This document shows positions 2,688 to 46,364 of a stretch of DNA of 63,313 nucleotides, piece by piece. The translations under genes were made by a program, and so were the position numbers. Every line of letters starts with the position of its first letter. Position 1 is the stretch's first letter. The stretch covers positions 1-63,313 of the forward strand of contig JAKIUC010000021.1 of the NCBI GenBank assembly GCA_021647785.1, read 5' to 3'. Origin of the DNA: Melioribacteraceae bacterium. GTDB lineage: Bacteria > Bacteroidota > Ignavibacteria > Ignavibacteriales > Melioribacteraceae. The notes under the pieces are model-generated. The model made no database searches. It was not told the origin of the DNA and saw only the letters and a program-made list of their open reading frames with translations.

Positions 2688-3008
2688 TTACAGAACTGCA
2701 TTTAGTTTTTCAACAAAAGCCGCTTTTGGTAATGCACCAATAATTGTATCAGCAATTTCACCATTCTTAATTATTAAAATTGTAGGTATGCTACGCACAC
2801 CATATTTAATAGTTGTTTCTTGGTTTGAATCAATATCTAGTTTTCCAACCTTAGCTTTACCCTCAAATTCAGAAGCTAAATCTTCAATAATAGGTGCAAT
2901 TGCTCTACATGGTGCACACCATGCTGCCCAGAAATCTACAACTACTGGTAACTCAGATTTTAATACTTCTTCTTCAAAATTCCCATCTGTAAATTCAATA
3001 GGTTTCAT
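2688..3008 (-). CDS. trxA: Thioredoxin
   Basis: A 106-residue protein of normal thioredoxin length and fold. It has the FWAAWCAPC active site with redox cysteines Cys31 and Cys34, and the cis-Pro segment VRSIPTILI. It is a cytoplasmic disulfide reductase that would serve ribonucleotide reductase, peroxiredoxins and similar partners. The active site is WCAPC rather than the classical WCGPC, a substitution expected to change redox potential slightly. The start is supported by GGAG five bases before the ATG. It lies 21 bp after the SDR gene, so the two are probably co-transcribed. Confidence 0.95.
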   Translation of the reverse strand: MKPIEFTDGNFEEEVLKSELPVVVDFWAAWCAPCRAIAPIIEDLASEFEGKAKVGKLDIDSNQETTIKYGVRSIPTILIIKNGEIADTIIGALPKAAFVEKLNAVL

Positions 3009-3029
3009 TTTTTCTCCAAATAATTATAT

Positions 3030-3854
3030 TTATTTAATAGGCTTACAAATAGTTTCACCAGTATAATTAACTACATACTCACCACCATCAACTTGTAAAA
3101 CATTTCCTGAAATCCAATCTGCTTTTTCGTCAGTTAACATAACAATAGCTTTGGCAACATCTGTTGCAAGAGTTAATCTTCCACCAGGGTTTTTCGTTTT
3201 TGCACCTTCCATCATTTTGTCGTTTCCCGGAATTTTTCTTAATGCAGGAGTATCGGTAACACCAGCCATTATTGCATTTGCTGTTACTCCCATTGAGCCA
3301 AGCTCTACAGCGAGCTGCCTTATATGAGATTCCAAGGAAGCCTTTGCTGCTGAAACTGCACCATAAGAAGGAAATACTGCACTAGAGCCTGCACTTGTAA
3401 GAGCAAATATTCTGGCTTTTTTTGCTAACAAATCTCTATGCACTAATCCTTGAGTCCAATAAACTAAAGAGTGAGCCATAACATCTACAGTCATTTCCAT
3501 CTGAGCTTTTGTTACACCATTCACAGGGTCTTTTGAAATATATGGTTTCAATGTTCCAAAGGCTAATGAATGAATTAATACATTAATAAGAGGATGCTCT
3601 TTTGTTGCAAATCTCTCTTTAATTTCATCCAATGTATCATTTCTTTTTAATTGGTCAGCGGCATTCATATTAAAAAAGACAGCTTTTTGCCCAGTTCTTT
3701 CAATTTTTTTGATAATACTATTTACATTTGGCATTGAACTTTGACGATCTAAATGTATTCCGAGTATATTATAACCAGCTTTAGCCAACTCTACAGCAGA
3801 GGCTCCACCAAAACCACTTGAAGCACCTAATATTAATGCCCATTTTTTGACCAT
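3030..3854 (-). CDS. Short-chain dehydrogenase/reductase, enoyl-ACP-reductase-like
   Basis: A 274-residue SDR protein. It has an N-terminal NAD(P)-binding glycine motif (LGASSGFGGASA), a Tyr-x6-Lys catalytic pair (SYGAVSAAK, about Tyr164 and Lys171), and the C-terminal ISGNVLQVDGG. The x6 spacing, rather than x3, is the pattern of FabI/FabL enoyl-ACP reductases, so a role in the last step of fatty-acid elongation is likely, though not proven. The reading frame extends to an ATG at 3866. I chose the ATG at 3854 because TGAGGA lies six bases before it and the first ATG has no such site. It is directly upstream of trxA. Confidence 0.8.
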   Translation of the reverse strand: MVKKWALILGASSGFGGASAVELAKAGYNILGIHLDRQSSMPNVNSIIKKIERTGQKAVFFNMNAADQLKRNDTLDEIKERFATKEHPLINVLIHSLAFGTLKPYISKDPVNGVTKAQMEMTVDVMAHSLVYWTQGLVHRDLLAKKARIFALTSAGSSAVFPSYGAVSAAKASLESHIRQLAVELGSMGVTANAIMAGVTDTPALRKIPGNDKMMEGAKTKNPGGRLTLATDVAKAIVMLTDEKADWISGNVLQVDGGEYVVNYTGETICKPIK

Positions 3855-15812: not shown

Positions 15813-15920
15813 AATTAAATGCCTGAATAACTTTATAATAGCTTGTAAAGATACAATTAAATTATCATAGGATAAATTGTATTTTCAAGATTCGTATGTT
15901 TTTTACTAATTATTGTATAG

Positions 15921-16043
15921 TGTTGTATCAAGTATATAATGACGTACAAAAATCCCTCACCCCTCTATAGAATCCTTCGGACAACCCTCTCCCAGTGAGA
16001 GGGAGTAAATGCCCCTCTCTTTTCAAGAGAGGGGTTGTCCGAA
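15921..16043. repeat. MITE-like element, truncated copy
   Basis: This copy shares its left end (TGTTGTATCAAGTATATAAT) and its core with the fuller copy at 46199-46364. Inside lie hairpins CCCTCTC/GAGAGGG (15985-16003) and CCCCTCTCTT/AAGAGAGGGG (16012-16034), enclosed by CTTCGGACAACC/GGTTGTCCGAAG. The right terminal repeat seen in the other copy is missing. Its place beside the IS110 remnant suggests that the right end was lost in a rearrangement. Confidence 0.8.
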
Positions 16044-16113
16044 GAAGTTATGTTTAAAAGAGCAAACAAATTATTTTACGTAAAATAAAGAAAAGGAAAT
16101 AGTAGATAAAAAG

Positions 16114-16170: not shown

Positions 16171-16239
16171 GTTATGAAACAACAATGTAAAACACTATAT
16201 TTTAGTAATCAAGACTTTTATTTAGGAATAGACGTTCAT

Positions 16240-16277
16240 AGGAATAGACGTTCACTCCCATAGGGATGGTTACACCA
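16240..16277 (+). repeat. 38-bp insertion with hairpin TCCCATAGGGA in the transposase
   Basis: This insert lies between the VH and KRSWSV codons of the IS110 DEDD motif. Its first part repeats TAGGAATAGACGTTCA (copies 16223-16238 and 16239-16254). It ends with the hairpin TCCCATAGGGA (16256-16266) followed by TGGTTACACC. It breaks the reading frame. Confidence 0.65.
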
Positions 16278-16409
16278 AAAAGAAGTTGGAGCGTTACAAT
16301 TAGAAGTAATAATATGTTTCTGAAAACATTTTCAATGAACCCGATACCAAAGGACCTAAGTAATTATATGCAAAAGCAATATCCAAAGGGGCAATATTAC
16401 AGTGTTTAC

Positions 16410-16430
16410 TTCCGTAGGAATGGATTCCCA
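16410..16430 (+). repeat. 21-bp in-frame insertion with hairpin TTCCGTAGGAA
   Basis: These 21 bp encode FRRNGFP within an otherwise typical IS110 motif. The hairpin TTCCGTAGGAA is followed by TGGATTCCCA. Aligned with 16256-16276, it matches at most positions. One stem pair changes from C-G to T-A on both sides, so the hairpin is kept. Confidence 0.65.
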
Positions 16431-17301
16431 GAAGCTGGTTTCAGTGGTTACGGTATTCACAGAGAACTAGAAATGTTAGGATTTCAGAATATCATAGTAA
16501 GTCCAACCAATATACCAACTAGTAGTAGAGAGCGTCTAAGGAAGACCGATGAAGTTGATTCAAGAAAATTAGCACGAGAATTAGAAAATGATTCGTTGAG
16601 TGGAATCTATATCGAAGAACTTTTAGAATTAAGAGCAAGACTATTAAAAACAGTAAAAAGTTTACGAAAATATTCTTTTGAATATAATATGGATGAAGAT
16701 ATTAAACTACTTATTGGTATCCCCGGAATATGGTTCATCACAGCTATAACGCTTTATACAGAAATAATGAATATTGAAAGGTTTACAAGTTTAGACAAAA
16801 TAGCAAGCTATATTGGCTTAGTTCCAACAACAAAATCATCTGGGGAAAAGGAAAAAGTATTAGGTTTAACGGTTCAATACAATAGATATCTACGCTCGTT
16901 ATTAATAGAATCATCTTGGGTGGCAATAAGAAAAGACCCAGCGTTGACGCTTGCCTATAATGACTATACGAAAAGAATGAGCAAACAAGAATCTATTATT
17001 AGAATAGCTAAAAAACTCTTAAACAGAATTTATTATGTCTTGAAAAATAAGAAGGAGTATGTTTATTCTATAGTATAATATAAATAAATTTGCCCCGCAA
17101 CAAAGGAAGAGATGAATTACTATTCTAGTTTTCCAATTTATCTCTTTCGATTATCTTTAGAAAGTTGAGGGGATGTAGCAAACATTTCTTGTTGAGTACT
17201 TGACTTTTAACATAACAGGACTCTGTGAGAATTTGGAGCTTATTTGAAATTTCTTTTTTGTTGTTTGAATTTTTCTAAAAAATAAAAAAATCGGAATATA
17301 C

Positions 17302-20476: not shown

Positions 20477-20514
20477 TAGCCGTAGGGACGTAGCTCGCTA
20501 CGTCCCTACGGCTA
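20477..20514. repeat. Perfect palindrome, copy 2 (core CGTAGGGACGTAGC)
   Basis: Two exact 18-bp arms around TC. The core of 14 bp per arm equals that of the copy at 2460-2507. The outer four bases differ but still pair (TAGC/GCTA). It lies between the convergent ends of the RND gene and sppA. Read towards the RND gene it is followed by a T-run (20462-20468), so it could end sppA transcription. Confidence 0.9.
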
Positions 20515-46170: not shown

Positions 46171-46198
46171 AGTTTTAGAATTTTATTTTTGTCGCTGG

Positions 46199-46364
46199 TG
46201 TCGTGTCAAGTATATATAATGACGTGCAATAACCCCTCACCCCAACCCTCTCCCAAAGGGAGAGGGAGTAAAAGCCCCTCTCTTTTCAAGAGAGGGGTTG
46301 TCCGAAGGACTCACTTAGAGGGGTGAGTTCAGAGAATATACGACATTACAAATATGACACGACA
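46199..46364. repeat. MITE-like element, complete copy with TGTCGTGTCA ends
   Basis: A 166-bp element with perfect 10-bp terminal inverted repeats (TGTCGTGTCA at 46199-46208, TGACACGACA at 46355-46364), which extend imperfectly inward. Nested inside are CTCACCCC/GGGGTGAG and the hairpins CCCTCTCCC/GGGAGAGGG and CCCCTCTCTT/AAGAGAGGGG. The core matches the truncated copy at 15921-16043 over more than 40 bp. It carries no gene. It sits between the convergent AddB-like gene and the lamin-tail gene. Confidence 0.88.

Follow-up and report, generated by a model that had tools for sequence, protein, structure and literature searches.

The window analysed in this work, a stretch of 63,313 nucleotides, is one contig (C49) of a 4.25-Mb genome assembled into 99 contigs. 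From position 16174 to 17078 it carries a gene of the IS110 transposase family, whose frame in the window gave a Pfam match to PF02371 (Transposase_20) with 68.4 bits and an E-value of 7.4e-19. This copy is a decayed gene, approximately 75 residues short of its paralogues L003 and L004 if the difference is counted by eye. All features of the locus are summarized in Table 1.

Table 1. Features of the IS110 locus, given in window positions.
Feature	Position	Strand	Remarks
5' remnant of the IS110-family transposase	16174..16263	+	Translation MKQQCKTLYFSNQDFYLGIDVHRNRRSLP followed by a stop; ends at the TAG within element 1
16-bp tandem duplication (AGGAATAGACGTTCAT/C), outside the element proper	16224..16255	+	Halves at 16224-16239 and 16240-16255; absent from L002
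Element 1, 22-bp double hairpin TCCC-ATA-GGGA TGGT-TAC-ACCA, frame-shifting	16256..16277	+	A seed of model R1, scoring 35.2 bits with it
Rest of the IS110 frame, decayed, still open	16266..17078	+	ATG supplied by element 1; PF02371
Element 2, 21-bp double hairpin TTCC-GTA-GGAA TGG-ATTC-CCA, in frame	16410..16430	+	FRRNGFP added between YYSVY and EAGFSGY

The two inserts and their empty sites

The preliminary description of this DNA had pointed to two extra pieces within the transposase, and both are present here and absent from the open paralogues of the same genome. The smaller piece, said to add seven residues in frame, was recovered exactly as described. The larger one, of 38 bp, does shift the frame as claimed, but it is a composite of two events, a 16-bp tandem duplication and a 22-bp element. 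Each piece had been read as a hairpin followed by a TGG-containing tail; the hairpins are real, but the supposed tail forms the leading arm of another hairpin (TGGTTACACCA; TGGATTCCCA). The exchange of a C-G for a T-A stem pair between the inserts is likewise real (TCCC/GGGA versus TTCC/GGAA). Two occurrences of the word CCRTAGGNNTGG were counted in the window, where shuffles predict 0.02, and element 1 was independently recovered by a sequence-agnostic scan for double hairpins of 4-3-4 build. The TAG in its own loop closes the original IS110 frame, and with its 22 bp element 1 broke the gene, as 22-bp copies in genes do. Element 2 belongs to a 21-bp subtype, as do the copies at L034/L035; since the window gene is decayed, its position in frame is uninformative about function.

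Alignment with the IS110 copies of the same genome marked the inserts as non-ancestral. The paralogues L003 (contig C68) and L004 (contig C82), both 68–69% identical to the window copy at the DNA level, have neither the seven residues nor the 38-bp piece. They are stop-free across both insert sites up to their contig ends, reading GIDVHKKSWTV and YYSVYEAGFSGF / YFSVYEAGFSGF, i.e. Y(Y/F)SVYEAGFSGF, and L003 matched DEDD_Tnp_IS110 (PF01548) over the insert region with 53.4 bits. A closer IS110 fragment of the same genome, L002 on contig C64 (92% identical), carries element 1 without the duplication. As both of these copies hold the 22-bp insert and only the window copy holds the duplication, element 1 predates their split, and from the sequences the 16-bp duplication is most likely the later event. 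It is hardly credible that IS110 originally had these residues and that the paralogues lost them, since the conserved segments run uninterrupted through L003 and L004 and the same double hairpin is found as a clean insert in unrelated genes. The comparison does rest on two open paralogues of 68–69% identity from this genome, and among 57 other genomes searched for close IS110 copies, none was near enough to act as an empty site.

The link to hairpins elsewhere in the window, drawn in the preliminary description, was not supported: six matches with at most three mismatches were found, four of them beyond the two inserts, against 2.73 expected for all. Two near-perfect 30-bp palindromes (CGTAGGGACGTAGC..GCTACGTCCCTACG) at 2469–2498 and 20481–20510 are separate from the insert family; as kin of the inserts they were rejected, having CCRTAGG alone in common with them. 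Just upstream of the IS110 gene, at 15919–16045, lies a different, larger dispersed repeat with the hairpins CCCTCTCCC...GAGAGGG and CCCCTCTC...GAGAGGGG within longer inverted arms, in which the arm changes look compensatory (TCCGAAG/CTTCGGA and TCTGTAAG/CTTACAGA). It recurs in at least 25 other places of the genome, counted from the 40 of 151 candidates that were scored, and one of these lies at window positions 46198–46307. Between 47156 and 51814, a 66-nt unit is present seven times at spacings of 483 to 861 bases, possibly as a repeated protein domain.

Consensus, distribution and stem pairing of the double hairpin

Searching the genome for the same units revealed a dispersed family. Its consensus of 22 bp consists of a hairpin YYCC-NNN-GGRA directly followed by a hairpin TGSY-TNN-RSCA, each of 11 nt, while the 21-bp subtype ends in TGG-ATTC-CCA (element 2 of the IS110 copy and L034/L035, with L017 being similar). 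Copies were located with patterns of our own choosing and with a covariance model, R1, the E-values of which are rough: 55 matches in this genome had an E-value of up to 10, and 13 fell below 0.02, nine of them being seeds. The exact 22-bp pattern gave 17 matches in this genome and 130 over 58 genomes (this one included), 26 of which were positive; the reversed pattern gave none in either set. With a looser pattern allowing one mismatch, 13 matches were found in this genome against one for the reversed pattern. A phylum sample of 296 genomes contained 59 positive ones and 262 matches, with copy numbers from none to about twenty per genome; as the reversed pattern was matched 8 times here, a lone match in a genome may be due to chance.

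For a collection of 257 Gb, a stricter pattern was used, for which about 0.5 chance matches were reckoned. At least 118 stretches matched, several of them from one genome. Among the 80 matches listed by name, 73 belong by title to Ignavibacteria, Bacteroidota, Calditrichota, Balneola, Chlorobiota or Neomarinimicrobiota, which we take together as the FCB group; the other seven come from Planctomycetota/Phycisphaerales (3), Proteobacteria (2), Patescibacteria (1) and an unspecified bacterium (1), and none of the 80 is from cyanobacteria. The element is spread over many genera. IMG/VR held one exact match to the strict pattern, which leaves viruses as a vector without support, and seven loci compared with the Rfam covariance models gave no match at the gathering threshold. 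In 400 kb of unselected DNA from relatives, the sequence-agnostic scan found no excess of adjacent 4-3-4 hairpins. Such a result agrees with roughly 14 copies in 4 Mb but gives no independent support; since there is no general excess of double hairpins, the family must be recognised by its sequence. Literature searches, mostly at title level, for element fragments, small dispersed repeats, Rickettsia palindromic elements (RPEs), double hairpins and palindromes of Ignavibacteria found no published description of the double hairpin.

The stems covary, as counted over 174 distinct copies, among them 45 that do not conform to the strict scan pattern. All 174 have complementary bases at pair 14-20, although mismatches were allowed by the pattern; the 45 non-strict copies have G-C in 21 and C-G in 24 cases and are never mismatched, with G-G and C-C being equally allowed. 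In the same 45 copies, pair 15-19 is C-G (34), T-A (9) or C-A (2), and pair 2-10 is C-G (31), T-A (8), T-G (4) or C-A (2). Among the listed matches of the phylum sample, pair 14-20 is broken in G236:C35, G287 and G322, all from genomes with one to three matches. These look like chance matches, some of which are to be expected given the 8 reversed ones. As pair 14-20 is kept in all 174 copies and broken only in matches of sparse genomes, the stems are maintained where the element is common.

Insertion sites in and outside protein genes

The clearest case within a gene is mutS of Ignavibacteriales CROMO_A_84 (L087), which contains two elements in opposite orientations. Each adds exactly seven residues to MutS, and both are absent from 30/30 aligned orthologues, the alignment covering 30 of the 56 genomes with a match and not the MutS of the genome of the window. 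Against the solved structure 7ou2, which we take to be E. coli MutS, the first site is without the seven residues and the second shows 10 gap positions. The reading frame stays open, with the full set of five MutS Pfam domains recognised.

In the genome of the window, four loci (L011, L012, L013 and L016) read NYPNPF/NNPNPF-G(E/K)AIP(S/M)G-NP within an apparent T9SS sorting domain; at the cut-off of 27 bits for Por_Secre_tail, L013 passes (29.8), whereas L011 (24.6), L012 (19.9) and L016 (21.3) stay below. A comparison of L016 with its genus (five genomes) yielded 72 other pieces. Of these, 17 begin exactly at base 937 and 19 stop exactly at base 915, which skips the element's 21 bases. Contig G004:C31 has a pair of such pieces (2875-2926 and 2927-3084) that directly abut at 2926/2927; nine pieces run through the element, several of them being known filled copies. 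The sorting domains of L016 and L011 also show further odd in-frame stretches (RGERVEVR; ETRHPATAGSVQTPLLGGVGGG) that resemble translated repeats.

Open frames with the element were further found for an ISL3 transposase (L034/L035, with identical flanks), a DDE transposase (L017), an HsdM-like protein (L059) and an M56 peptidase (L129); for L059, the alignment to solved HsdM relatives stops short of the insert. The frame is lost at element 1 in both IS110 copies (window and C64), and at L020 exactly 22 bp split a frame of the phage integrase family. From these cases, insertion would usually add 22 bp, whereas the copies that survive in proteins seem to be those of 21 bp.

Insertion sites in general were analysed for 170 distinct copies with flanks of 40 nt. 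Across the joint of the flanks, 17 copies showed an identity of at least 0.85 at period 7, compared to none or one at other periods, except for period 3 (6) and the multiple 14 (8). From 12 copies in heptamer arrays, 9 could be scored: eight of them (6 loci) come back into phase on deletion of exactly 22 bp and one on deletion of 21 bp, copies inside one array (L165, L185) not being independent. The remaining 3 had no clear phase, with best lengths of 23, 22 and 19. At L165 and L185, several elements are scattered through one (CAAACTC)n-like heptamer array.

Palindromes were the other recurrent site. The flanks pair over at least seven bases in 8 of the 170 copies, compared to 0.3 expected from shuffled flank pairs and at most 2 in 200 shuffles. 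At L230, the palindrome GTCCACTTCAGTGGAC (GTCCACTT-C-AGTGGAC) is present twice in its empty form, and a third copy with one changed arm is filled in the loop by an additional 22 bp; the same palindrome site is filled at L057. The L230 palindromes are REP-like repeats of a relative, where the Y1 transposase gene of G026 has copies of GTCCACTTCAGTGGAC and TTGGCTTCAGCCAA and words resembling GGGCTTTAGCCC on its flanks. The flank consensus over all 170 copies is TTN^NAA (with T at -2 in 74%, A at +2 in 62% and A at +3 in 53%, against a background of 0.30–0.31), and the flank composition contains neither a GTAG nor a CGTC end tag. Insertion is clean, as the filled and empty sites of genes, arrays and loops demonstrate.

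Larger arrangements were observed as well. In L031, L032, L039 and L040, GTCTG-element-TGAGAC forms an outer stem around the double hairpin, a cloverleaf-like composite repeat. Tandem arrays that hold the element lie at G048:C1:3410382-3410968, with six copies 113 bp apart, and at G026:C60:82-747, with four copies about 215 bp apart.

Probable mobility and relation to known small repeats

The inserts of the window very probably represent copies of a dispersed, non-autonomous element of very small size, with two adjacent stem-loops within 21–22 bp and nothing encoded of its own, that inserts cleanly at TTN^NAA-like sites. We infer that it is mobile in trans; mobility in the present day can be deduced only indirectly, as no strain pair differing by one insertion alone was found. 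The element enters such a site as a clean unit, with the target neither duplicated nor lost, and its entry points lie between tandem heptamer units, within palindrome loops of other repeats and inside genes. The folded single strand could be mobilised by a Y1 transposase of the IS200/REP type encoded elsewhere in the genome. IS200/IS605 Y1 enzymes perform single-strand DNA transposition, which the clean entry, the hairpin loops and the short target recall, and our preferred, if tentative, guess is that such transposition in trans moves the element. Y1_Tnp was found in 26/26 element-bearing and in 27/32 other genomes (Fisher p 0.058), and it correlated with the element copy number (Spearman 0.36, p 0.006; 0.35 after genome size), a weak link, since Y1 is nearly ubiquitous and the relatives are not independent. 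The neighbourhoods of 20 of the 206 Y1 matches were considered, with element-rich genomes being chosen, and L230 for its nearby element. A pattern-level copy was near Y1 in one of them (L230), sitting in a repeat loop, and a loose, uncontrolled rule gave 27 hairpin pairs in 10 of the 20, of which 26 are not pattern copies.

We consider a different route, movement by reverse transcription of an RNA copy, to be unlikely. The absence of target duplication and the compact folded unit would agree with it, and RNA-copy movement has also been suggested for cyanobacterial small dispersed repeats (SDRs). For the double-hairpin elements of Allomyces, RNA intermediates are suggested in a passage of PMC2800124. 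However, RVT_1 was found in 10/26 element-bearing and 13/32 other genomes (p = 1), so an association with reverse transcriptase was rejected, and the one-contig genome G048 holds 14 copies and no RVT_1 match. We hold the nature of the element to be strongly supported and the Y1 route to be a guess.

Copies could also have arisen as replication errors, by template switching or slippage at hairpins instead of transposition, with their likeness resulting from the favouring of G+C-rich stem-loops alone. While the enrichment in slippage-prone sites, i.e. the paired flanks (8/170 versus 0.3 expected) and period 7 (17/170), speaks for such an origin, one 22-nt consensus across unrelated genes and many genera is unexpected of hairpins formed de novo and makes it quite improbable. 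The composite units described above, the shared flanks of L022-L026, the GTCTG-element-TGAGAC repeats at four loci and the six G048 copies, would suit a reading in which recombination spreads larger composite repeats, with the double hairpin as a tag or piece of them and its isolated copies as what is left over. Yet filled and empty sites differ by 21–22 bp only in MutS, the T9SS genes, the heptamers and the repeat loops, and we give this reading very little credence.

The nearest known kinds are cyanobacterial SDRs, REP/REPINs, RPEs and mitochondrial double-hairpin elements. As far as is known, SDRs are confined to a subgroup of cyanobacteria; those of Nostoc punctiforme and relatives, the subject of Elhai et al. 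2008, reportedly measure 21–27 nt, show compensatory stem changes and are nested in heptamers and other repeats. By description, the double hairpin resembles them in unit size (21/22 bp by empty sites), in compensatory stems (pairs 2-10, 14-20 and 15-19) and in its nesting (17/170 copies at period 7, plus repeat loops), and this nesting in tandem heptamers and palindromes is closer to the reported habits of SDRs than to those of RPEs. Compared in the same way, it differs by its occurrence in the FCB group (73/80 listed), its fixed tandem double hairpin and its in-frame protein inserts, MutS included. According to a passage of PMC4390886, SDR5 inserts precisely into the short palindromic target HIP1, and PMC4679880 describes TAACTGA heptamer repeats common to Cyanobacteria and some Bacteroidetes. 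The latter may bear on the heptamer habit common to SDRs and the double hairpin.

RPEs occur in frame in many unrelated proteins, with RPE-1 having a length of about 100–150 bp. The comparison with them, made in the preliminary description, holds as a likeness in in-frame insertion (here into MutS, T9SS domains and, as element 2, IS110) but not as membership, given 21–22 bp or seven residues instead of the longer RPE-1, two tandem hairpins, and another bacterial group, Bacteroidota and relatives. RPEs and intragenic REPs, as well as GTAG- and CGTC-REPs, are treated in a section of PMC3733652; there and in PMC3116915, REPs and REPINs appear as small, palindromic, non-autonomous repeats, some of them in genes including DNA repair genes, with Y1 transposases being suspected. 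The double hairpin is likewise small, palindromic, non-autonomous and partly intragenic, with Y1 suspected. It differs in its two unlike hairpins in direct succession, apparently in lacking a tie to a neighbouring Y1 gene (one of 20 neighbourhoods has a pattern-level copy) and, from GTAG/CGTC REPs, in its TTN^NAA flanks in place of a GTAG or CGTC end tag, and it inserts into the loops of REP-like palindromes. The double-hairpin elements of Allomyces measure 26–79 bp and, to our knowledge, are not known as in-frame inserts; the absence of target duplication and the two adjacent hairpins are common to both, whereas fungal mitochondria are replaced here by bacterial genomes and 26–79 bp by 21–22 bp. 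For the Allomyces elements, PMC2800124 cites Paquin et al. 2000. As no compared kind fits every tested feature, the double hairpin is placed as a variant among very small mobile repeats.

It is conceivable, although we advance this with caution, that the 22-nt double hairpin is the self-contained substrate of a dedicated, FCB-wide mobilisation system, independent of SDRs but SDR-like in build, that repeatedly adds seven residues to proteins including MutS and, recurrently, the T9SS domain. If true, few known mobile DNA units would be as small. The mobility of DNA of about 20 nt is an old question for SDRs and REPs, and it becomes testable here, given that the unit is defined at 22 nt, its target is short, its sites are cleanly empty or filled, copy numbers range from none to about twenty per genome, and candidate enzymes exist. 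The element is also a source of insertions of exactly seven residues, both in mutS and other intact genes and in T9SS sorting domains, and where FCB proteins show short in-frame 'insertions', these may be mobile elements.
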